A DNA stretch of 64,000 nt from Cellulomonas sp. S1-8 (lineage in GTDB: Bacteria > Actinomycetota > Actinomycetes > Actinomycetales > Cellulomonadaceae). Below, piece after piece: positions 9,198 through 22,379 of this stretch; position 1 is the first letter of the stretch, and the number at the start of each line of letters is the position of its first letter. The position numbers and the translations under genes were made by a program. Below the pieces are notes generated by a model. The model searched no databases, was not told the DNA's origin, and saw only the letters and a list, made by a program, of their open reading frames with translations. The DNA lies in contig NZ_CP110806.1 of assembly GCF_026184235.1 (NCBI RefSeq), forward strand, positions 992,001 through 1,056,000, in the 5' to 3' direction.

Positions 9198-10508
9198 TCA
9201 CGCCCGACCGTCCGGTCCGGCCGCCCAGGGGAGCCAGGCGTGCACCGCGAACGTGCCGTCCGGACGGCGCTGCGCGTCGAGCTCGCCGCCCGCGAGCCGG
9301 AGACGCTCGGCGAGGACGGTCAGTCCCCGGCCCGACGTGGGCAGCGGCGTGGCTGGGGCGCCGTCCGGCACGGGGTTGGTGACCTCCAGGCAGACGCGCT
9401 CGCCGGGCGCACCGTGCAGGCGCACCCGGACAGGTGCCGCCGGCGCGTGCTTGTGCGCGTTGGTCAGGGCCTCCTGCACGACGCGGTAGAGGTGGCGGCT
9501 GGTCGACAGGGGCAGCCGCGCGATGTCGTCCTCGCGCACGCGGTCCCGCACCACGGTCACGGGTGACCCGGCGGCGCGCGTCCCCTCGACGAGCTCGCCG
9601 ACCTGCGCGAACGTGGGCTGCGGCCGCGAGTGCTCGTCGGTGGCGGTCGTGTCGCGCAGCAGGCCCAGGACCTCGCGCAGCTCGCCGAGGGCCTCGTGCG
9701 CGCTCTGGCGCACCACCGCGGCGCTCTCCCGGACCTGGCCGGGCTCGAGCCCGGCGCGGTGCTCCAGCGCCCCGGCGTGCAGCGCGACGAGCGACAGCCG
9801 GTGGGCGAGTACGTCGTGCATCTCGTGGGCGATGCGGTTGCGCTCCGCGGCGCGGGCGCTCTCGTCGCGCGCGTCGGCCTCGCGTCGCGCGATCGCCGCC
9901 TGGTCCCGCAGCGAGGCGACGAGCGTCCGACGCCCACCGATGACCAGGCCGGTCAGGACGACGAGCGCCAGGACGACGAGGTGGCCGAGCACGGCCCGCA
10001 CGTCGTGCAGGACCGGCGCGTCGGCCCGATGGACCACGAACGTGCCGAAGGCGCGGTCGGAGACCATCTCCGCGCCCAGCCACAGCAGGCAGACGGGCCC
10101 GATCTCCACCCAGCGCCGGCGGGTCGCCAACGAGACGACGGCGAGCAGCACGACGCCGGTGGCGGCCTGCGAGAACGAGCCGACCGTGACGACCAGGCCC
10201 GTCACGACGAGCGGCGCCGCGTGGCGGAACACGTACAGCACGACGCACACCAGCAGGCACAGCACCTCGACGGCGTAGAACCACCTCATGGCGCTCTCCC
10301 GCGCCGCCATGCCCGGGTCGGCCTCCAGGCTGACGCCGAAGACCGCGACGGTCAGGACGAGCCCGACGGCCAGGGCGACGAGCAGACGCCAGGTGTGCGA
10401 CCACGCTCGACGCCCACGGCTCGGCGTGGCGGGCCCGGCGACCTCGGGCACCGCGCGGTACCCGAGGGGCGCCTCGGTCGCGAGGACCGGTCGCGGGGAC
10501 GAGGTCAC
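9198..10508 (-). CDS. Sensor histidine kinase (HisKA_3/NarL type), third gene of a two-kinase operon
   Basis: The 436-residue protein starts at GTG 10506-10508, overlapping the response regulator stop by 4 bases. Residues about 40-190 contain five or so hydrophobic segments with no large extracellular loop. The dimerisation/phosphoacceptor region RNRIAHEMHDVLAHRLSLVALHAGALE carries the phosphorylated His of the HisKA_3 class, and the ATPase domain contains HLYRVVQEALTNAHKHA and SGRGLTVLAERLRLAGG. The signal is unknown. It is about 65-70% identical by eye to the first kinase of the operon at 11197-12450, so the two arose by duplication. Confidence 0.88.
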   Translation of the reverse strand: MTSSPRPVLATEAPLGYRAVPEVAGPATPSRGRRAWSHTWRLLVALAVGLVLTVAVFGVSLEADPGMAARESAMRWFYAVEVLCLLVCVVLYVFRHAAPLVVTGLVVTVGSFSQAATGVVLLAVVSLATRRRWVEIGPVCLLWLGAEMVSDRAFGTFVVHRADAPVLHDVRAVLGHLVVLALVVLTGLVIGGRRTLVASLRDQAAIARREADARDESARAAERNRIAHEMHDVLAHRLSLVALHAGALEHRAGLEPGQVRESAAVVRQSAHEALGELREVLGLLRDTTATDEHSRPQPTFAQVGELVEGTRAAGSPVTVVRDRVREDDIARLPLSTSRHLYRVVQEALTNAHKHAPAAPVRVRLHGAPGERVCLEVTNPVPDGAPATPLPTSGRGLTVLAERLRLAGGELDAQRRPDGTFAVHAWLPWAAGPDGRA

Positions 10509-11200
10509 ACGTCGCCCGCCTCGTGCACGCAGATGGCGATGTGCGTGCGGTTGTCCGCCGGCATCTTCTCCAGGATCCGGCTGATGTGCGTCTTCACGGT
10601 CGCGACCGTGATGAACAGCTCCGCTGCGAGCTCGGCGTTCGACAGGCCCCGACCGATGGCGCGGGCGACGTCCCGCTCGCGCTCCGTCAGCCGGTCGAGG
10701 TGCTCGCGGGCCACGGTCCGGCGCTCGTCGCGGGGCTGGTGCGTCACCGACGCGATGAGGCGGTCCGTCACCGACGGCGACAGCGTCGTGCGGCCCGCGC
10801 CCGCGTCGAGGACGTGCCGGACGATCTCCGCCGGCGGGGTGTCCTTCAGCAGGAACCCCGCGGCACCCAGCCGCAGGGCGCCCAGCACCATCTCGTCGGT
10901 GTCGAACGTCGTGAGGATGACGACCCGGGCGTCGGGCTGCCCGGCGAGCAGGCGCTCGGTCGCGGCCAGCCCGTCCAGGCGCGGCATGCGGATGTCCATG
11001 AGCACGACGTCGGGGGACGTCCGCTGCACCACGTCGAGCGCCTCGAGCCCGTCGGCGGCCTCGCCGACCACCTCGATGGCGGGGTCCGCCCCGAGGATGA
11101 GCCGCAGCCCCACGCGGACCAGCGTCTCGTCGTCGACCAGCACCACCCGCACCGTCGGACCCACGGACCGTCCCACCCCCGGCTCCGCCGTCGTCGTCAT
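10505..11200 (-). CDS. NarL/FixJ-type response regulator
   Basis: The protein has 231 residues from ATG 11198-11200, overlapping the upstream kinase stop by 4 bases (ATGA). The receiver domain (residues about 18-135) shows VDDE near the start, the phosphoacceptor Asp in VVLMDIRMP, and FLLKDTPP with the conserved Lys. The C-terminal LuxR-type helix-turn-helix is LTERERDVARAIGRGLSNAELA...VKTHISRILEKM. It is the only response regulator between two paralogous kinases and probably receives phosphate from both. An upstream in-frame start at 11236 would overlap the kinase gene and is less likely. Confidence 0.9.
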   Translation of the reverse strand: MTTTAEPGVGRSVGPTVRVVLVDDETLVRVGLRLILGADPAIEVVGEAADGLEALDVVQRTSPDVVLMDIRMPRLDGLAATERLLAGQPDARVVILTTFDTDEMVLGALRLGAAGFLLKDTPPAEIVRHVLDAGAGRTTLSPSVTDRLIASVTHQPRDERRTVAREHLDRLTERERDVARAIGRGLSNAELAAELFITVATVKTHISRILEKMPADNRTHIAICVHEAGDV

Positions 11201-12450
11201 GCCTGACCCTCCGTCCCGGCCGCCCACGGCAGCCACGCCTGCACCACGAACGTCCCGTCGCGCCGCTGGACGTCCAGCCCGCCACCCGTCAGCCGCAGCC
11301 GCTCGGACAGGCCCGTCAGCCCCCAGCCCGACGTGGGCAGGGGAGCGCTCGGCGGGTGCTCCGGCATCGGGTTGATGACCTCCACGCCGACGCGCTCGCC
11401 CGGGGACCCGTGCATCCGCACCTGCACCGGGGTGCCCGGCGCGTGCTTGCGCGCGTTCGTCAGCGCCTCCTGCACGACGCGGTACAGGTGCCGGCTCGTC
11501 GACAGGGGCAGCTGCGCCAGGTCGTCCTCCGCGACGTGGTCCAGCACGAACGTCACGGGTGAGCCTGCTGCACGCGTCCCGTCGACGAGGTCACCGACCT
11601 GCGCGAACGTGGGCTGCGGTCGTGAGTGCTCCTCGGCCGCGCTCGGGTCCCGCAGCAGGCCGAGCACCTCGCGCAGCTCACCGAGCGCCTCGTGCGCGTT
11701 CTCCCGTACCACCGCCGCGGTCTCCTGGACCTGCTCCGGCTCCAGGTCCGCGCGGTACTCCAGCGCCCCGGCGTGCAGCGCGACGAGCGACAGGCGGTGG
11801 GCGAGCACGTCGTGCATCTCCCGCGCGATGCGGTTGCGCTCGCCCGCACGGGCGCTGTCGCTCCGGGCGTCGGCCTCGCGTCGCGCGATCGCCGCCTGCT
11901 CGCGCAGGGACGCGACCAGCGCCCGCCGCCCGCCGATGAACATGCCGGTGACGACGACGAGCGCGGTGAACACGAGCTGGGCGGCGACCGCCCACACCTC
12001 GGCGGAGGGGAACGTCTCGGCCGGCATCACCCACGCGCTGAACGCGCGCTCGCTGACCAGCGTGGCACCGCACCACAGCGCGGCCACCGCCACGATCTCC
12101 GACCACCGTCGTCGCGTCGCGAGCGACACCACCGCGAAGACGACCAGGCCGGCCGAGAAGAGCGAGAACGACCCCAGGACCACGATCGCGCCGGTGAGCA
12201 CCAGCGGCGCGCGGTGCCGCACCACGTACATCGGGAGGCACACGGCCAGGAGCGCCAGGTCCACGAAGAACCACACGGGCGCGGACGGGAGCAGCGCGAA
12301 CTGGGGGTTCCCCTGCAGGCCCAACCCGTAGACCACGACACCCGCCGAGCCGCCGACGCCGACCGCCAGCAGCAGCCGCCAGGTGTGCGCCCACACGCGG
12401 CCGGCCCGGCTCGGCGCAGGCGCCGCGTCGGGGTCGGGCGTCGTGGTCAC
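11197..12450 (-). CDS. Sensor histidine kinase (HisKA_3/NarL type), first gene of a two-kinase operon
   Basis: The 417-residue protein starts at GTG 12448-12450. It has an N-terminal membrane region with about five hydrophobic segments, then RNRIAREMHDVLAHRLSLVALHAG with the phosphoacceptor His, and the ATPase segment VVQEALTNARKHAPG...SGWGLTGLSERLRL. The paralogue at 9198-10508 has the same architecture; differences cluster in the membrane half, which suggests that the two kinases sense different signals and share the regulator between them. Confidence 0.88.
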   Translation of the reverse strand: MTTTPDPDAAPAPSRAGRVWAHTWRLLLAVGVGGSAGVVVYGLGLQGNPQFALLPSAPVWFFVDLALLAVCLPMYVVRHRAPLVLTGAIVVLGSFSLFSAGLVVFAVVSLATRRRWSEIVAVAALWCGATLVSERAFSAWVMPAETFPSAEVWAVAAQLVFTALVVVTGMFIGGRRALVASLREQAAIARREADARSDSARAGERNRIAREMHDVLAHRLSLVALHAGALEYRADLEPEQVQETAAVVRENAHEALGELREVLGLLRDPSAAEEHSRPQPTFAQVGDLVDGTRAAGSPVTFVLDHVAEDDLAQLPLSTSRHLYRVVQEALTNARKHAPGTPVQVRMHGSPGERVGVEVINPMPEHPPSAPLPTSGWGLTGLSERLRLTGGGLDVQRRDGTFVVQAWLPWAAGTEGQA

Positions 12451-12953: not shown

Positions 12954-13069
12954 CCCGCGACGGTAGGCCACCACCCCACCGTGCCGGCAGCGATTTCCGC
13001 CGAGTGGGCTCCGTGCAGCTCGGTCGCGCGGACGATGCGCCGGGGCTCGCGGCGGGCGAGCATGGTGCC

Positions 13070-14104
13070 GTGAGCCACCCGCACGTCGTCGTCGACCCGC
13101 ACGAGGTCCCGGGGACGTACGCGTACCACCGGTTGCCGCGCACGAGCCCCCGCACGCGCTGGTGGCGGCCGCTGCTCGTGGGGCTCGTCGGGGTCGCGGT
13201 GTTCGTCGCGCTCCTGGCCGTCGGGGCGGTCGTCGTGCTCCTGACGGCGCTGGCCTCCGGGCCCGGCGGCCTGGACGCGCTCGGCACCCTCGACATCGCC
13301 GACCTGGGGGACCCGCTCGCGTTCACGCTCGCGATGCTGAGCATCATCGCGATGCTCCCCGCGGCCGTGCTGGCGACGTGGCTGCTCGGCGCCCGGCCCG
13401 TCGGGCTGCTCGCGTCGGTCGCCGGGCGGGTCCGGTGGGGCTGGGCCGCGCGCTGCCTGGCGCTGTCCGCCGCGCTCGCGCTCGTCGTCACCGGCGGCGA
13501 CCTCGCCCTCGCCGCGCTGCAGGGCGAGGCGTGGCAGCCGCGCGTCGACGCGACGTCCTGGCTGATGATCGGGCTCGTCGTGCTGCTCGTGCCCGCGCAG
13601 TGCCTCGCGGAGGAGGTCGTGTTCCGCGGCTACCTGGTCCAGACGGTCGGGACGTGGCTCCGGCATCCGGTGTTCGCGCTCGTGCTGCCCGTCCCGTTGT
13701 TCGTGCTCGGGCACGCGTACGTCAACCTCGCGATGGTCGACACCGCCGTGTGGGCGCTCGCGATGGGCTGGCTGGTGTGGCGAACGGGTGGTCTCGAGGC
13801 CGCGACCGCGTCACACGTCGTCAACAACGTCCTCGTCTTCAGCCTGGGGGCCGTCGACCTGGCCGACCTGGACCTGGTCGACATCGGCCCGGTCGCCCTC
13901 GGGGTGTCGACCGCGTCGACGCTGGCGTACCTGGGCCTGGTCGAGGTGCTGGTCCGGCGCACGGGCGTCGCCACCCGGAGGCTCGTCGCCGCCCCGCCCC
14001 CGCCGGACGCCCCGCCCGCCGCGGCGGTCGACGCGGGCGGGCCCGTGGTCGTCCCCGGGCCGCTCGCCGACCCGTCCCGCAGCAGGACGTCACCGCGTTC
14101 GTGA
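13070..14104 (+). CDS. CPBP family intramembrane metalloprotease (Abi-type)
   Basis: The 344-residue protein starts at GTG 13070 and has about eight membrane segments. The CPBP/CAAX-protease motifs are in order: AEEVVFRGY with Glu181-Glu182 and Arg, FVLGHAYVN with the metal-binding His, and ASHVVNNV with the last His and Asn. Homologues include Rce1-like prenyl proteases and bacterial immunity proteins; the substrate here is unknown. The last 50 residues are Pro/Ala rich and probably unstructured. Confidence 0.85.
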   Translation: MSHPHVVVDPHEVPGTYAYHRLPRTSPRTRWWRPLLVGLVGVAVFVALLAVGAVVVLLTALASGPGGLDALGTLDIADLGDPLAFTLAMLSIIAMLPAAVLATWLLGARPVGLLASVAGRVRWGWAARCLALSAALALVVTGGDLALAALQGEAWQPRVDATSWLMIGLVVLLVPAQCLAEEVVFRGYLVQTVGTWLRHPVFALVLPVPLFVLGHAYVNLAMVDTAVWALAMGWLVWRTGGLEAATASHVVNNVLVFSLGAVDLADLDLVDIGPVALGVSTASTLAYLGLVEVLVRRTGVATRRLVAAPPPPDAPPAAAVDAGGPVVVPGPLADPSRSRTSPRS

Positions 14105-14161: not shown

Positions 14162-15457
14162 GTGCATCCTGTCAGTGAACGTATCCGTGACGCCCGTGAG
14201 CGCAGCGGCCTGTCCCAGGCCGATCTCGCACGAGCGGCGTTCATGCACCCCAGCTACGTCTCGCACCTCGAGCGCGGCGTGCGTGGCCCGGGCGACGGCG
14301 CCCTCGAGCGGCTCGCACGCGCCCTGGGAGTCACGACCACGTACCTGGAGGAGGGCGAGCGCTCGCCCGCCTACCGGGCGTCCGAGGCGGCCGTCGTGCG
14401 GGCGCGCCAGCTCGTGCGCTCCGGCCGGGCGACCGAGGCCGTCACCGAGCTCGAGCAGGTCGCGCTCGACTCCCTGGACGTCGACCAGAGCGCGCGGGTC
14501 CTGCTCGCCCACGCCGAGGCCCTGGACCTCGCGGGGGACCTCGAGAGGTCGGCCCGGGTCCTCGAGGACACGACGCATCGGCTCGTCCAGGGCCACCGCC
14601 CGCAGCGCGCCGCCTACGCCGCCATGCGCCTCGTCATGGCGCTGACCGAGGCCGGTGACCTGCACGGCGCGGTGCGCGCGGGCGAGCAGAACCTGGCCGT
14701 GCTCGCCACCACCGCGGCCGGCACGGACGAGCTGATCCGCCTCGAGTCGACGCTCGTGTGGGCGTACGTCGCGCGCGGCGACGTCACGTACGCGCGGGTG
14801 CGCGGCGCCGAGCTGCTGACCCGCGCGCTGGTGCACGGGTCCGCGCGCGCGATCTGGTCGGTGCACTGGAACCTCGCGTTCGTCGACGACGCGGCCGGCG
14901 ACGCCGACGACGCGCTCGCCCACCTGCGCGCGGCGCTGTCGATCGCCGGCGGCGAGGAGGCCGAGCGTGACATGCCGCGCCTGCGCCTCGACCTCGCCCA
15001 GCTGCTGCTGGCGGTCACGCCGGCCCGCCCGCGGGAGGCGCTGGCGGAGCTCGACGCCGCCTCGACGGCCCTGGAGGTCGGCGAGTCGCAGGTCGAGCAC
15101 GCGCGCGCCGCGACCATCCGCTCGCGTGCGTCCCTCGTCCTCGGGCAGAACCGCGCCGCGCTGGTGCACGCCGCCCGCGCCGTCGACCTGCTGTCCACCG
15201 GCGAGCGCCGCGACGCCGCGGCCGCGCACGAGGCGCTGGGCGACGCGCTGCTCGCCTCAGGCGAGCGGACCGCCGCCGTCAAGGCGTACCGGCAGGTCGC
15301 CGACCGGCTCGACCTCACCCCGGCGGGCCGCACGTCGGCCGTCGCGTGGCGGCGTCTGGGGGACCGGTTGCGCGCCGCGGGCGACGACCGCGCGCGTGTC
15401 GCGGAGGCGTACCGGCGCGCGCTGGACGCCGCGGGCGTGGGGACGACGCGCCCCTGA
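14162..15457 (+). CDS. HTH-TPR transcriptional regulator (RRNPP-like architecture)
   Basis: The 431-residue protein begins at GTG 14162 (VHPVSERIRDARERSGLSQ). Residues 5-65 are an XRE-type helix-turn-helix (LSQADLARAAFMHPSYVSHLERG). The remaining 360 residues are Ala/Leu-rich paired helices of tetratricopeptide type (for example AVTELEQVALDSLD, ALAHLRAALSIAGG, AAAHEALGDALLASGERTAAVKAYRQVADRL). This is the layout of the Rgg/PlcR/PrgX/NprR receptors that bind short imported peptides in Firmicutes, but sequence-level membership is not proven and other HTH-TPR regulators exist. A gene for a small secreted peptide lies 182 bases downstream in the same orientation. Confidence 0.8.
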   Translation: MHPVSERIRDARERSGLSQADLARAAFMHPSYVSHLERGVRGPGDGALERLARALGVTTTYLEEGERSPAYRASEAAVVRARQLVRSGRATEAVTELEQVALDSLDVDQSARVLLAHAEALDLAGDLERSARVLEDTTHRLVQGHRPQRAAYAAMRLVMALTEAGDLHGAVRAGEQNLAVLATTAAGTDELIRLESTLVWAYVARGDVTYARVRGAELLTRALVHGSARAIWSVHWNLAFVDDAAGDADDALAHLRAALSIAGGEEAERDMPRLRLDLAQLLLAVTPARPREALAELDAASTALEVGESQVEHARAATIRSRASLVLGQNRAALVHAARAVDLLSTGERRDAAAAHEALGDALLASGERTAAVKAYRQVADRLDLTPAGRTSAVAWRRLGDRLRAAGDDRARVAEAYRRALDAAGVGTTRP

Positions 15458-15506
15458 CGACCCCCTGCCGCACCCCCTGAGGACCTGCGCGGACGCCACC
15501 GCGGGC

Positions 15507-15540
15507 GACACGCCCGGGTGACGGCCGACATGGGCGTGTC
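15507..15540. terminator. Inverted repeat between regulator and peptide gene
   Basis: GACACGCCC (15507-15515) is matched by GGGCGTGTC (15532-15540), a perfect 9-bp stem with a 16-base loop. It may end the regulator transcript or serve as an operator; no T-run follows. Confidence 0.35.
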
Positions 15541-15600
15541 TACCCCGGTGTCGCCTTAGTCATTGCGGTCACGACATCCCCGTAGGGACCATGCCGGAGT

Positions 15601-15615
15601 GCCGGACAGTCCGGC
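15601..15615. promoter_or_regulatory. Palindrome before the peptide gene, candidate operator
   Basis: GCCGGAC-A-GTCCGGC is a perfect 7+7 palindrome around one base, ending 24 bases before the peptide start codon. Its place and symmetry suit a dimeric HTH regulator, with the upstream HTH-TPR protein as the obvious candidate. It could also be a short RNA hairpin in the leader. Confidence 0.45.
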
Positions 15616-15639
15616 GCGTCGTTCCGAAGGGGTCCCATC

Positions 15640-15759
15640 ATGAACAAGCTCACCGTTGCCGCCGTCGCCATCCTCGTTGCACTCGGCGGTCTCCTCGGCG
15701 CCTCCGCTGCCTCGGCTACCCCCGTGGTCGTCGCCGCTCCCTGCTGCAAGGCCATCTGA
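15640..15759 (+). CDS. Small secreted peptide precursor, 39 residues, Cys-Cys motif
   Basis: The gene starts at ATG 15640, seven bases after AAGGGG (15627-15632). The product has a complete Sec signal peptide: MNK, a hydrophobic core LTVAAVAILVALGGLLG, and ASAASA before the expected cut. Cleavage leaves only 13 residues, TPVVVAAPCCKAI. The adjacent cysteines near the C-terminus are striking for so short a product. Codons ending in T or A (GTT, GCT, GCA, GGT) are clearly more frequent than in the neighbours. It follows the HTH-TPR regulator and could be a signalling peptide, but a redox-active, antimicrobial or non-functional leader peptide is also possible. Confidence 0.65.
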   Translation: MNKLTVAAVAILVALGGLLGASAASATPVVVAAPCCKAI

Positions 15760-15857
15760 GGGAGCGTTCCCGCAATGCGTCGACCGCTCGCGCCGCCGGA
15801 CCGTCGGACCGCCCCGGTCCCGGTCCGGCGTCGCGAGCCTGGGGGCCCGCGCCGGTG

Positions 15858-16082
15858 CTACCGGCCGGGCACACCCCTCACCAGCAGCACGGACTCGACG
15901 GCGTCGATGCGGATGCAGGGCGCCGCACCCGAGGGGCCGACGAAGATGACGTTGCCGGACAGCAGGCAGGACAGGGGGCCGACGTACTCGCCGCCCGACA
16001 GGGTCCGCACGGCCACCTCGCACCCGTCGAGGTGGCTGAGATAGGCGCGCACGCCGGCGAGCGCGGGGTCGAGCGGTTCCAT
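15858..16082 (-). CDS. Small LSm-like beta-rich protein, 74 residues
   Basis: The product contains a short helix-like start (LDPALAGVRAYLSHLDG) and then alternating beta segments: CEVAVRTLSGGEYVGPLSC, GNVIFVGPSG, APCIRIDAVESVLLV. The order helix, strand, G-containing turn, strand, and a final I-x-x-V-E-x-V segment recalls the Sm/LSm fold, although I cannot prove membership. The start ATG 16080-16082 is preceded on the minus strand by GGATAGGTT at a distance that suits a leaderless transcript. It is 90 bases downstream of the MFS gene and converges on the peptide gene. Confidence 0.6.
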   Translation of the reverse strand: MEPLDPALAGVRAYLSHLDGCEVAVRTLSGGEYVGPLSCLLSGNVIFVGPSGAAPCIRIDAVESVLLVRGVPGR

Positions 16083-17822: not shown

Positions 17823-20800
17823 GTGACCGCTCCTGCACGCACCCCCGGCACGGGGACGCCCCCTGCCGGGACCACGCCGTCCCCCGAGGGCGACGTCGCC
17901 GCGCCGGACCGGCCCGCGACCGCGGACGGCCCGCCCGTGGCGCTCGTCGAGCCGCCGTCGCCCGCCGAGATGCTCGAGGGCGCCGTCGTCACGTGGCGCG
18001 CCGCGCTCGTCGAGGCCGCCGGCGCCTCCACGCTCGCCGACGTCGACCAGCTCGGTGACGCCGCGCTCGACCTGTCGTCCGCGCACCCGTCGGGCATGGC
18101 CCAGCTGTTCGCCGGCCGGCCCACCCGGCTGTCCAACCTCGTGCGCGAGCCCGGTGCGCTCTCCGGCGCCCGGCGTCGCGCCCGCGCCGTCAGTGCCCGC
18201 GCCGCCGGCTACACCCAGCGTTACGGCATCGCCTCGACGTCCCTGGCGATCGGCGTGGCGACCTGGACCGACCGGTCCAGCGCGGACCTCGCGTCCGACG
18301 ACGTCGGCGCGCTCGCGCACGTCACCCGCCACCCCCGCACGCCCAGCGGCCGGCCCGCCGGGTCCGACGGCCACGACACCGCCGTGCGGACCGTGCGCGC
18401 ACCGGTGCTGCTGCGGCCCGTCGGCCTGCGCGCCCGCGGCACCGGCGAGGGCGACTACGAGATCGAGCTCGAGCCCGCGATCGAGGTCAACCCCGTGCTG
18501 GCCCGTGCGCTGCGCGGCCACGGCGCCCTGCTCGACCCCGCGGCCGTCGCGCGGGGCACGTTCACCGCCTCCGGGTTCGACCCGCGCGGCGCGCTGCAGC
18601 GGCTCGCGTCGCTCGGCGAGGCCGTGCTGGAGGACTTCACGCTCGTCGAGCGCGTCGTCGTCGGCACGTTCGTCCACCCCGGGCAGGTCATCGTCGACGA
18701 CCTCGACCAGCTCGCGGGGACGCTCGAGCGGCACGACGTGATCCGCGCCCTCGCAGGTCTCGACGACGCCCGCGCGACGCTCGACGTGCCGCTCCCGCAG
18801 CCCGTCACGGGCGACCGGGACCCCGCCACGGAACGGGGCGTCGGCGACCTCGACCCCGCGCAGCAGCACGTGCTCGACGTCGTCGCGACCGGCGCCCACG
18901 TCTTCGTCGACGCCCCGACCGGCTCGGATGTCACCGGCACGCTCGCCGCGGTCGTCGCCGACGCCGCCGCCGAGGGGCGCACCGTCCTGTACGTGCCCGG
19001 GCACCGCCGCGCCGCCGTGTCGCTCGTCGACCGGCTGCGCCGCCTCGGCCTCGGGGAGATCGTGCTCGACGTCGAGCCGCACGCCGGCTGGAGGACCGCC
19101 GCCGCGCGTCGGCTGCTCGGCGCGATGACCCTCGAGCCGCCCGTCGTCGACACCGACGCCGTGCAGGCCGTGCGCGGCCCGCTGCTCGAGCACCGCGAGC
19201 GGCTGCGCGGGTACGTCGACGCGCTGCACGTGCCGCGCGAGCCGTGGGGCGTGTCCGCGTACGACGCGCTGCAGGAGCTGGCGCGCCTCACCGCGACCCG
19301 CCCGATGCCGGCGACGACCGTGCGTCTGACCCCCGACGTCGCGCGCACGCTCGACGCGGGACGCCGCACGCGGCTCGCGGCCGAGCTCGTGCGCGCCGGT
19401 GAGCTCGGCGCGTTCGCGCTGCGCCCGCAGGACACTCCCTGGTACGGCGCCGACGTGCGCACGTCCGCCGACGCGCAGGTCGTGCGCCGCCGCCTGGACC
19501 GGCTGCTCGACGTGACGCTGCCGCTGCTCGTCGAGCGCGTCGCGCAGGTCGCCGGTGAGACGGGCCTGACCCAGGCGACGACCCTCGACCAGTGGGCCGA
19601 GCAGCTGCGCATGCTCGACGGCGTGCGCGCCTCGCTCGACGTGTTCCAGCCGCTGGTCTTCGAGCGCACCGCCGCCGACCTCGTCGCCGCGACCGCCACG
19701 AAGCAGTGGCGCGAGGCGAACGACGTGCCCATGGGGTTCTGGGTGCGGCGCCGCCTGCGCAAGCAGGCCAAGGACATGCTGCGCCCCGGCAGGCCCGTCG
19801 CCGACCTGCACGGCGCGCTCATCGCGGTGCAGGAGCGCCGCAGCGTGTGGCAGGCGCACTGCCCCGCCGGCGGCTGGCCGCGCCTGCCCGAGAGCCTCGA
19901 GGTCATCGAGGACGAGCACCACGCGGTGCGGCAGGACGTCGAGGGCGTCGCCGAGGTGCTGACCTCGACACCCCTGGGCGGGCAGCTGACCTCCACGCCG
20001 TTCGACGTGCTGCGCGAGCGGCTGGCGCGGCTGCGCTCCGGCGCGTCCGCGCTGGACACGCTGCCCGAGCGGACGACCCTGCTGCACGGCCTGCGCGCCG
20101 CGGGACTCGGCGACCTCGTCGACGAGCTCGCGTCCCGTCGCGTCGAGGCCGCACAGGCGCCCGCCGAGCTCGACCTCGCGTGGTGGAGCACCGTCTTCGA
20201 GCACGTCCTGGCCGCCGACCCCGCGCTCGCCGGGTACGACGGCGCAGCGCTCGGTGAGCTGTCCGCGCGGTACGCCGTGCTCGACCGCCGGCACGTCGTC
20301 AGCCGGACCGCGCCCGTGCTCGCCACCGCCGTGGGACGCATCGCCGCAGCCGTCCGCTCGCACCGGGACCAGGCCGAGGGCTTGTTCGCCGAGCTCGTCG
20401 AGGACCGCATGACGTCGCTGCGGGACACCGTCTCGCGGTACCCCGACCTCGCGCGCCGGCTGCGTCCCGTGCTCGTCGCCGGGCCGATGCTCGTCGCGCA
20501 GGTCCTCCCCGCGTCGCGCACCGTCGACCTCGTCGTCATCGACGCCGCCGCGCACCTGCCGATCGAGGCCGCGCTGCCCGCCATCGCGCGCGGCCGCCAG
20601 GTCGTCGTCGTCGGCGACGCACGCTGCGCGTCCGGCAGCGCCGTCCGCGACCTCGCGCGCGTCCTGCCGTCCGTCGCGCTGCACGCCGACGCCTCACGCC
20701 GCGACCCGTACCTGACGCGGTTCCTCGCCGAGCACGGCTACGAGGGCGTGCTCGTCCCGACGCCGCTGCCCGCGTCGCACCCGCTGGTCACCCTCGAGAC

Positions 20801-22379
20801 CGTCGACGGCACCGGCATGCCCGACCCGGCGACCAGCATGGTCGACTCCACGGCCGTCGAGGTCGAGCGGGTCCTCGAGCTCGTCGTCGAGCACGTCCTG
20901 CAGCACCCCGAGGAGTCGCTCGCCGTCGTCACCCTGACCCCCCGGCACGCCGACGCCGTCCGCGAGACGGTCCTGGCCGAGGTGCGCGACAACCCCGCGC
21001 TCGCCGCGTTCTTCGACGCCGCACGGCCCGACCCGTTCCTCGTCGTCGACGTCGCGAACGTCGGCGGCCTGCGACGCGACGCCGTCATCCTGTCCGTCGG
21101 CCTGGGACGCACCCCGCACCGGCGCGTCCTGCACACGTTCGGCCCCGTCAGCCGGCCCGGCGGGGACGCGCTGCTGCTCGACGCCCTGGGCTCGACCCGG
21201 CACCGGCTGACCGTCGTCGCGGCCTTCGGCGCCGACGACCTCGACCCCGAGCGCCTGCGCGGCCCCGGCCCGCTGCTGCTGACCGACGTCCTGCGGTTCG
21301 CGGCCGAGCGCGGCGCGCAGGCCGCCGGCCACGCCGCGACCGAGCGCCCGACCGGCGGCCCCGACCCCGACCGTCTCGTGCTGGACCTCGCCGAGCGGCT
21401 GTGGCGCCACGGCCTCGTCGTCGACGTCGACCACGGCGTGACCGGCGGTGCCCGCATCCCGCTCGTCGTGGGCCACCCCGACCTCCCCGACGAGATGCTC
21501 GTCGCGGTGCTCACGGACGACGCCGCGTACGTCGGTGAACCGAGCGTGCGCGTGCGCGACCGCCTCGTCGGCGACCGGCTCGCGCAGCTGGGCTGGTCGG
21601 TCGTGCGGGTGTGGTCCGCCGCCGCGTTCCTCGACCCCCAGGCGGAGGTCGACCGCATCCGCCGCACCGTGCACGAGGCGCTCGTGCAGCGGCTGCCCGA
21701 CGCCGCCGCACCGGCGCCCTCCACCGTGACGGCCGTGCCGGTGCACGTCGACGACGACGAGGAGAGCGCACCGGTGCGCCCCTACGTCGCGCAGCGTCCC
21801 CTGACCGGCGCCGTGCCGGTGGTGCGTCCCGCGACCGGCGCCGTGCCGGTGGCGGGGGGTGCGAGCGGTGGTGCCGCGGTGGTGCGGACCCCGACGGGAG
21901 CCGTGCCCGTGGTCCGGACCCCGACGGAGCCCCAGGTGCGTCCGGCGACCGGGGCCGTGCCGGTGGTGCGGACGCCCACGGGCGTGACGCCCGTCGTCGC
22001 GACCGGGGCGGCGCGCGCGCCGCAGACGGGCGCGACGCCGGTGGCCCCGACCCCGGTGGCCCCGACGAGCGGACCGACCGCGGCCGGGCCGTCGGCCGGT
22101 CCGGTGCAGACCGAGGCGTTCATGGACACCCCCGCGTCGGGCGAGCAGCTCGCGCTGCCCGTGCGGACCGCGACCCGCCCCGACGTGCGGGCCGGGCTGC
22201 CGATCAACGCGTACAGCGACGACCAGCTGGACGACCTGGTGCGGTGGCTGCGGTCCGACGGCGCCGAGCACACCCGGGACCAGCTGGCCGACGACCTGCG
22301 CGCGGAGCTGGGCATCACGCGTCGGAGCCACCGCGTCGACTCGGCGGTCCGTGCCGCGGTCATGCGCGCCTTCAGCTGA
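17823..22379 (+). CDS. Large helicase-like protein with degenerate SF1 motifs and C-terminal nuclease-like fold
   Basis: The 1518-residue protein resembles the DUF4011-type superfamily 1 helicases fused to a restriction-endonuclease-like domain. Residues about 130-330 match the N-terminal region, the ATPase core runs from about 340 to 1160, and the nuclease-like part is at about 1190-1290 (VRVRDRLVGDRLAQLGWSVVRVWS). The key motifs are altered: the Walker A position reads DAPTGSDVTGT (no Lys, about residue 360), the Walker B position reads VVIDAAAHLP (DEAS-type Glu missing, about 902), and the QGDERD and NVAxTRA motifs near 1080-1140 are lost. Residues about 1330-1410 are TGAVPVVR-type repeats, and the C-terminal 55 residues look like a small helical domain. 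It is probably not an active helicase and may be a scaffold. Confidence 0.78.
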   Translation: MTAPARTPGTGTPPAGTTPSPEGDVAAPDRPATADGPPVALVEPPSPAEMLEGAVVTWRAALVEAAGASTLADVDQLGDAALDLSSAHPSGMAQLFAGRPTRLSNLVREPGALSGARRRARAVSARAAGYTQRYGIASTSLAIGVATWTDRSSADLASDDVGALAHVTRHPRTPSGRPAGSDGHDTAVRTVRAPVLLRPVGLRARGTGEGDYEIELEPAIEVNPVLARALRGHGALLDPAAVARGTFTASGFDPRGALQRLASLGEAVLEDFTLVERVVVGTFVHPGQVIVDDLDQLAGTLERHDVIRALAGLDDARATLDVPLPQPVTGDRDPATERGVGDLDPAQQHVLDVVATGAHVFVDAPTGSDVTGTLAAVVADAAAEGRTVLYVPGHRRAAVSLVDRLRRLGLGEIVLDVEPHAGWRTAAARRLLGAMTLEPPVVDTDAVQAVRGPLLEHRERLRGYVDALHVPREPWGVSAYDALQELARLTATRPMPATTVRLTPDVARTLDAGRRTRLAAELVRAGELGAFALRPQDTPWYGADVRTSADAQVVRRRLDRLLDVTLPLLVERVAQVAGETGLTQATTLDQWAEQLRMLDGVRASLDVFQPLVFERTAADLVAATATKQWREANDVPMGFWVRRRLRKQAKDMLRPGRPVADLHGALIAVQERRSVWQAHCPAGGWPRLPESLEVIEDEHHAVRQDVEGVAEVLTSTPLGGQLTSTPFDVLRERLARLRSGASALDTLPERTTLLHGLRAAGLGDLVDELASRRVEAAQAPAELDLAWWSTVFEHVLAADPALAGYDGAALGELSARYAVLDRRHVVSRTAPVLATAVGRIAAAVRSHRDQAEGLFAELVEDRMTSLRDTVSRYPDLARRLRPVLVAGPMLVAQVLPASRTVDLVVIDAAAHLPIEAALPAIARGRQVVVVGDARCASGSAVRDLARVLPSVALHADASRRDPYLTRFLAEHGYEGVLVPTPLPASHPLVTLETVDGTGMPDPATSMVDSTAVEVERVLELVVEHVLQHPEESLAVVTLTPRHADAVRETVLAEVRDNPALAAFFDAARPDPFLVVDVANVGGLRRDAVILSVGLGRTPHRRVLHTFGPVSRPGGDALLLDALGSTRHRLTVVAAFGADDLDPERLRGPGPLLLTDVLRFAAERGAQAAGHAATERPTGGPDPDRLVLDLAERLWRHGLVVDVDHGVTGGARIPLVVGHPDLPDEMLVAVLTDDAAYVGEPSVRVRDRLVGDRLAQLGWSVVRVWSAAAFLDPQAEVDRIRRTVHEALVQRLPDAAAPAPSTVTAVPVHVDDDEESAPVRPYVAQRPLTGAVPVVRPATGAVPVAGGASGGAAVVRTPTGAVPVVRTPTEPQVRPATGAVPVVRTPTGVTPVVATGAARAPQTGATPVAPTPVAPTSGPTAAGPSAGPVQTEAFMDTPASGEQLALPVRTATRPDVRAGLPINAYSDDQLDDLVRWLRSDGAEHTRDQLADDLRAELGITRRSHRVDSAVRAAVMRAFS
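21807..22060 (+). repeat. Imperfect repeats encoding TGAVPVVR-type units
   Basis: Within the helicase-like gene about six imperfect copies of a 24-30-bp unit encode (P/T)-TGAVPVVRTP. The segment is Pro/Thr/Val-rich and is expected to be an unstructured linker before the small C-terminal domain. Confidence 0.7.

Follow-up and report, generated by a model that had tools for sequence, protein, structure and literature searches.

The XRE-TPR regulator gene and the small gene downstream of it, which were studied within a window of 64 kb (the whole stretch of DNA analysed), probably form a minimal RRNPP-like peptide-signalling cassette. This cassette would consist of a receptor and an adjacent secreted peptide, and would belong to an apparently undescribed family of Actinomycetota. 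Comparison of the related loci showed a conserved gene pair, lineage-specific peptide ends, a conserved promoter block and a predicted HTH-TPR architecture. The preliminary description of this DNA had suggested a receptor-peptide pair in a high-GC actinobacterium. The suggestion was strengthened by the invariant PCCK found at all 27 orthologous loci and by the paralogs and homologs, most of which have a CC peptide of their own. The features of the locus are listed in Table 1.

Table 1. Positions of the features of the regulator-peptide locus in the window
Feature	Position	Strand	Remarks
XRE-TPR regulator, clade A	14162..15457	+	431 codons; GTG start at 14162, stop at 15455-15457
TGTCTA, conserved in first-peptide promoters	15537..15542	+	alignment of 27 upstream regions
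GTCATTGC-N6-GACA, proposed operator (GTC-N11-GAC)	15559..15576	+	proposed from conservation
Conserved TaGGGAccAT block, part of the promoter or 5'-UTR start	15583..15592	+	can pair with bases around the Shine-Dalgarno sequence in single-sequence folds
Palindrome/hairpin GTGCCGGACAGTCCGGCGC, probable 5'-UTR hairpin	15599..15617	+	core is the perfect 15-base palindrome GCCGGACAGTCCGGC (15601-15615)
Shine-Dalgarno sequence AAGGGG	15627..15632	+	AGG here in 27/27 aligned loci, AAGG in 24
39-aa secreted-peptide precursor MNKLTVAAVAILVALGGLLGASAASA/TPVVVAAPCCKAI, C-terminal PCCK	15640..15759	+	slash marks the predicted signal-peptidase cut, placed by eye

The regulator, the peptide gene and their neighbourhood

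The Pfam search assigned residues 7-61 of the regulator to HTH_3 (E 5e-14) and residues 74-283 to TPR_MalT (E 8e-8, a match that falls short of the family's curated cut-off). The AlphaFold2 model, built from an 18-sequence alignment, had a pLDDT of 91.4 and consisted of an HTH made of five N-terminal helices and, after it, an unbroken helical array. Both results agree with the N-terminal XRE domain and TPR-like helices noted earlier from the sequence. When the model, an HTH joined to a TPR superhelix, was compared with the PDB by Foldseek, the top matches were TPR superhelices such as LGN/Pins; the PlcR-PapR7-DNA complex (3u3w) stood at rank 27 and Rap-CSF (4gyo) at rank 48. A PlcR profile also matched positions 2-180 (E 2.4e-7), with designed or generic TPR and HTH proteins scoring higher, and Pfam and NCBIfam gave no match to a model of Rgg, PlcR, ComR, PrgX, NprR, AimR or Rap. 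We propose that this protein is an intracellular peptide receptor and transcription factor.

The peptide gene is an open reading frame of 39 codons that starts 182 bases past the regulator stop. The precursor has a basic n-region, a hydrophobic core, an AxA site and a 13-residue remainder; the cleavage site was set by eye, and signal peptides were called throughout by a crude rule only. It matched no model of Pfam (E<=0.01) or NCBIfam (E<=0.1). This was the one frame in the window that combined a ribosome-binding site, a signal-like N-terminus and CC in the last 15 residues. Thus the short secreted-peptide gene with a good ribosome-binding site that had been described at this distance was recovered with all of its parts. 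Peptide genes of this kind are tiny, so annotation may miss them.

Orthologs of the clade-A regulator, 58-100% identical, were found in 27 of the 81 genomes of the genus, the host genome itself being a single contig of 4.5 Mb. Among named loci, the 16 with full-length regulators 58-88% identical were all from Cellulomonas, and 25 more were distant, the majority of them matching the HTH part alone; the host therefore belongs to this genus or is very close to it. Cellulomonas iranensis NBRC 101100 and C. phragmiteti NBRC 110785 are among the carriers of the regulator. The preliminary description had advised looking for the peptide frame at orthologous loci, where its absence would speak against the pair, and for conservation of its C-terminal residues together with the regulator. 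No such absence was seen: each of the 27 clade-A loci carried one to five small downstream frames (43 genes in total) with a Shine-Dalgarno sequence, a signal-like N-terminus and PCCK near the C-terminus, and PCCK was invariant throughout. Tandem copies occurred five times in one locus, four times in two loci and twice in six loci; the copies within a locus have PCCK in common and diverge around it. In an alignment of 25 PCCK peptides, the invariant columns were M1, G17, P34, C35, C36 and K37.

Across the whole precursor, mean pN was 0.35 and mean pS 0.33; of 66 pairwise comparisons between 39-aa precursors, 26 had a pN lower than pS. No net purifying selection on the precursor is thus evident, and the only constraint to be seen lies in PCCK and in the general signal-peptide character. 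Because the length and the tail around PCCK vary, the active form need not be the unmodified 13-mer.

A profile of the PCCK peptides found clear members in 29 of the 81 genus genomes, namely the 27 regulator carriers and two orphans, as well as weak matches (E 0.004-0.01) within long open frames in six other genomes. The orphans (G048:C6:97244-97363 and G034:C170:683-799; L069 and L070) had no clade-A regulator match at E<=1e-20 and no promoter block, and from their translations they appeared by eye to adjoin HNH/DUF222-like and HxlR-like genes. They either speak against strict pairing or represent remnants or solo signals. The background sequence, about 607 kb lying more than 2 kb from regulators of the family, contained 76 signal-like small ORFs, of which three had CC, and two of these three were the PCCK orphans. 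A chance ORF was rejected on the strength of this low background together with the co-occurrence at all 27 loci.

The neighbourhood was examined with the regulator and seven other window genes in 26 clade-A loci, some of them from one and the same genome. Near the regulator, which was present in all 26, the large gene at 17823-22379 with a predicted REase domain was kept in 21 loci, the MFS gene in 11, the CPBP protease in 9 and the histidine kinase in 9 (and weakly in one more). The linkage of regulator and peptide therefore outlasts most, not all, of the local gene order, since most window neighbours change among these loci; the frequent presence of the large gene shows that gene-order conservation of the ordinary kind accounts for some of the linkage. 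The CPBP intramembrane protease (13004-14104) was considered as a dedicated processing enzyme and rejected as a member of the cassette, as the 9 of 26 loci that keep it are all close relatives. Among the window genes tested in the 26 loci, no conserved RiPP or lantibiotic modification enzyme and no dedicated export enzyme was found. The host genome encodes five SBP_bac_5 solute-binding proteins that could serve peptide uptake; no link between them and the PCCK peptide was seen.

Carriage by phages or plasmids was likewise rejected, since the plasmid, phage and viral-contig collections held no close match. The plasmid collection gave three distant records, the phages two weak partial records and the viral contigs one HTH-only match. 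A Nonomuraea replicon of 11.85 Mb, which is chromosome-sized though labelled a plasmid, carried a divergent peptide ending in GDAGCC, and on a Streptomyces plasmid (L255) the rule found no CC peptide. Elsewhere in the window, inspection by eye of the minus strand at 9198-12450 showed a response-regulator-like frame (10505-11236) flanked on either side by a histidine-kinase-like frame, the two being similar to each other. This arrangement looks like a tandem duplication.

Promoter block and leader hairpin

The 27 first-peptide promoters of clade A had GTCTA, GTCATTGC and a block resembling TaGGGAccAT in common, and after these came the palindrome and the Shine-Dalgarno sequence. GTCATTGC was present in all 27 and was followed by N6-GACA in 24. 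Many clade-B promoters contained GTCATgATcgtcGTGACAg, in which the GTC-N11-GAC spacing was identical by eye. In the host genome, GTCATTGC-N6-GACA with at most one mismatch occurred at two places, the clade-A promoter and a position 182 bp before the clade-B peptide gene, while a control with the reversed pattern gave one. The host site on the B side (GTCAT...GACA) overlaps the start codon of a divergent EAL gene.

When ten further genomes were searched in the same way, each had an exact match at its clade-A peptide promoter, and four (G010, G033, G036 and G079) also had a B-type site, which lay about 177-183 bp ahead of the B peptide. There were 17 other one-mismatch matches compared with 11 in the control. 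No regulon is claimed, because these other matches are near the control rate, and no target gene was found for clade A. In G079 there is a second exact copy of GTCATTGC-N6-GACA away from peptide genes (G079:C1:3349420-3349437), a possible regulatory target.

The preliminary description had pointed to the perfect 15-base palindrome before the peptide gene as a possible binding site of the regulator. The palindrome itself is there, and a role in the RNA now seems the better account of it. Over 24 loci its pairing was kept in 93% of cells; three pairs had both partners replaced, and U-G pairs occurred. The window leader folded with a z of -3.88, and the alignment consensus supported only the palindrome hairpin. 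An outer stem that would hide the Shine-Dalgarno sequence appeared in many single-sequence folds and was absent from that consensus. The palindrome is probably not an operator, because it lies just before the Shine-Dalgarno sequence, changes in one arm are partly compensated in the other and a good fold is predicted for the strand. The compensating arm changes, the G-U pairs, the fold z and the consensus hairpin thus disfavour it as an operator. It is probably a 5'-UTR element instead, and judging from conservation the upstream block is the better operator candidate. Rfam gave no match in 15400-15900, and no sigma-70-like promoter or terminator was found in 15430-15900.

Related pairs in the family, class and phylum

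A paralogous regulator, about 41% identical, is encoded in the host genome (G000:C1:2661940-2663205) and is widespread in the family. Its peptide gene lies upstream on the same strand. The precursor ends in ...NGGASGCCKDFV in the host and in ...QSGATGCCRTVA and similar sequences elsewhere, so that the clade-B end can be written as GCC[RK] with a short tail. Regulator matches at E<=1e-60 came from 81 family genomes; 80 of these also gave a profile match to the B peptide (E<=0.001), and in the remaining one (G001) the B-peptide ORF was found by script (L157). In 24 further genomes the peptide profile matched without a regulator match at that cut-off. They comprised G073, whose regulator (4e-59) is just above the cut, fourteen genomes of genus g2 and nine others, in which several of the matches were weak and lay in long frames.

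Of 20 clade-B or outgroup loci, 18 have an EAL-domain gene beside the regulator, two of the loci (L145 and L146) being without a CC peptide. In the host it is divergent from the peptide gene (L071:11728-12453, about G000:C1:2663728-2664453). This gene is a possible output of the clade-B system.

At the cut-offs used, homologs of the regulator profile were found in 23 of 396 genomes of the order, 81 of 374 of the class and 24 of 217 of the phylum. The class search examined 69 loci, 40 of which were drawn from a longer match list. For the survey of adjacent peptides, 114 of 181 regulators were kept; those dropped had a flank of less than 500 bp, were shorter than 330 aa or shared an exact 60-mer. 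When the non-redundant regulators were searched for a signal-like ORF with CC at no more than 1.2 kb, one was found for 68 of the 76 close regulators, for 5 of the 11 intermediate ones and for 2 of the 27 distant ones. The first figure consists of 65 loci called by the rule and three by eye (L150, L169 and L209), the CC of L169 sitting 30 residues from the end. The rule-called genes were found downstream on the same strand (21), upstream on the same strand (16), divergent (19) and convergent (9). The close homologs without a CC peptide within 1.2 kb were L145, L146, L212, L215, L220, L249, L255 and L217, the last of which has one 1.6 kb downstream of the regulator, outside the limit. Altogether there were 129 distinct CC precursors, and 11 of them have a TGT codon in the Cys pair.

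The C-termini of the peptides track the regulator lineage, with PCCK in clade A, GCC[RK] in clade B, and PGMCC, GDFCC and WCC elsewhere. Three polar residues of the TPR region, N236, R268 and R274, were conserved at 86-96% in 109 regulators with a CC peptide and at 30-34% in 47 without, a comparison in which redundant sequences were kept and phylogeny is a confounder. Four loci (L195, L198, L202 and L203) have two CC peptides each: an upstream one in divergent orientation and a downstream one encoded on the opposite strand, the latter ending in GGSDFCC, GGSDYCC or GGSLYCC.

Outside the class, 17 of 18 loci were examined, with one at a contig end (L278) left out. In twelve of the 17, a signal-like peptide with [WFY]P close to its end was recognised by eye beside the regulator in divergent orientation, for example ...ANWPHH, ...AKWPWG and ...GWPRH, and ten of these twelve had an RBS-like match at the listed start. 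Two of the twelve also had CC (...APWPHCC and ...APFPGCCG). Furthermore, three more distant MAG loci had peptides of 25-26 residues ending in TPWW, TPWG and PIWP. None of 35 background ORFs of 25-45 aa had [WFY]P in the last ten residues. In Streptomyces-like loci the peptide candidates were less clear.

Some single loci deserve mention. Two distant regulators (L262 and L264) are followed 15-16 bp downstream by a same-strand peptide ending in WSDGH or WSDGHL, possibly another peptide code. At the class level, the divergent peptide of L236 contains DIGWP[TV]P as a repeat and may be a single precursor that carries a double pheromone. The regulator matches in six genomes of family f35 (G596, G713, G802, G832, G722 and G779) contain one in-frame stop each, which could reflect match overrun or broken copies.

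Signalling model, alternatives and known systems

From the comparisons above we infer the following course of events. The precursor encoded at 15640-15759 would be exported by the Sec pathway, as its signal-like N-terminus suggests, and trimmed to a signal formed by its C-terminal part centred on Pro-Cys-Cys-Lys. The peptide would then be re-imported into the cell and bound by the TPR superhelix of the regulator (14162-15457), which would serve as the cytoplasmic receptor. The HTH would act on the promoter of the peptide gene itself; its likely site there, judging from conservation, is GTCATTGC-N6-GACA (15559-15576). The outcome would be autoregulation and a switch dependent on cell density or uptake, and the hairpin before the Shine-Dalgarno sequence would probably add a second control at the RNA level. 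Within the family, each regulator lineage appears to have its own adjacent peptide, PCCK downstream in clade A and GCC[RK] upstream in clade B. Other families would use CC at or near the end of an often divergent peptide, and more distant lineages aromatic-Pro motifs.

The alternative that survives best, which we nevertheless regard as unlikely, makes the peptide the output: an exported effector with an antimicrobial, cell-wall or metal- or thiol-binding function through its vicinal Cys residues, while the XRE-TPR regulator answers another cue. A pair of Cys residues is chemically reactive, the host block at one mismatch or less stands upstream of two peptide genes only, no other conserved clade-A target gene was found, and two orphan PCCK peptides exist without a regulator. 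Against this, regulator and peptide diversify jointly and in differing gene orders across families, and none of the eight window genes tested resembles a dedicated modification, immunity or transport gene kept with the pair. Moreover, the peptides of distant relatives are about 25-40 aa long and hydrophobic, with aromatic-Pro ends. Since these distant peptides are very short, hydrophobic and mostly without Cys-Cys, they are more easily understood as short pheromones than through a metal or redox function common to all.

It is considerably more doubtful that the pair is a redox or metal sensor, in which the Cys-Cys peptide would report the state of the envelope or the thiol pool and the regulator would read one oxidation or metal state. 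The adjacent Cys residues do recur in 68 of the 76 close-homolog loci although the remaining sequence varies, but the peptides of outgroup regulators mostly have no Cys-Cys, and there is no redox gene among the scanned window neighbours. This reading is compatible with peptide signalling and is not a clean rival to it. Finally, a leader peptide, a regulatory upstream ORF or a chance frame would agree with the hairpin near the Shine-Dalgarno sequence and with pN close to pS, but is hardly credible: 129 distinct precursors, placed in several gene orders, share the signal-like N-terminus, ribosome-binding site and CC end, the convergent and divergent ones among them cannot lead the regulator, the CC codons vary synonymously (11 of 129) and the background is near zero.

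The preferred reading, a peptide-signalling pair, has its closest likeness in the RRNPP/RRNPPA systems (PlcR-PapR, Rgg-SHP, ComR-ComS, PrgX, NprR, AimR and Rap-Phr), which likewise combine a TPR receptor, often with an N-terminal HTH, and an adjacent small propeptide gene. The present locus has the HTH and TPR-type receptor and the adjacent small signal-like propeptide gene conserved with it; a short C-terminal signal is proposed here, and PlcR-PapR7-DNA and Rap-CSF are among the structural matches. We call the pair RRNPP-like on account of its architecture and gene pairing, and membership in RRNPP would rest on binding. The RRNPP systems belong to Bacillota, whereas this pair is from Actinomycetota and its peptides carry Cys-Cys or aromatic-Pro, motifs that to our knowledge occur in no RRNPP pheromone. 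The ComS/XIP pheromones with their double Trp are short secreted signals with an invariant pair of identical residues. They share this trait with the present peptide, but their pair is Trp-Trp rather than Cys-Cys and they come from another phylum.

Tandem pheromone copies are known in RRNPP systems (abstract of PMC11343458). RRNPP systems have been described for Firmicutes/Bacillota (excerpts of PMC10075063, PMC9765709 and PMC11343458), and no actinobacterial terms were found in the excerpt of PMC9765709. The XRE-DUF397 pairs of Streptomyces also combine an XRE regulator with an adjacent gene for a small protein (PMC10364602, in part). The present pair differs from them in its 39-aa, signal-peptide-like peptide and in the long TPR array of its regulator. 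An XRE-DUF397 pair was rejected here, as the peptide matches no Pfam or NCBIfam model and its regulator's partner is therefore not DUF397.

The preliminary description had held that such pairs are hardly described in high-GC actinobacteria. In keeping with this, no description of a Cys-Cys peptide or an RRNPP-like pair in Actinomycetota was found in the literature searched, a body that leaves preprints and most subscription journals outside its coverage. Term look-ups for such a pair also gave nothing in the available parts of PMC10075063, PMC9765709, PMC13220807, PMC4748050, PMC13419125 and PMC11343458. Actinobacterial signals are typically small molecules made by enzymes, compared with the oligopeptides of Bacillota (PMC10075063, in part), and include gamma-butyrolactones and also cyclic or modified peptides (PMC4748050, in part). 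A further regulatory layer would be added in these bacteria by a widespread two-gene pair in which a linear peptide is exported and its receptor is cytoplasmic. Such a pair has a simple genomic signature, an XRE-TPR gene beside a small ORF that has a signal peptide and terminates in CC or aromatic-Pro.

A much broader idea, speculative and in our view improbable, is that of a phylum-wide, undescribed peptide language of Actinomycetota read by cytoplasmic XRE-TPR receptors. The C-terminal motif would serve as a code for the lineage: the class of Cellulomonas would use Cys-Cys and the rest aromatic-Pro, with PWPHCC bridging the two, and the Cys-Cys would make the signal redox- or metal-gated. 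If this were true, one small pair would measure both cell density and thiol chemistry.
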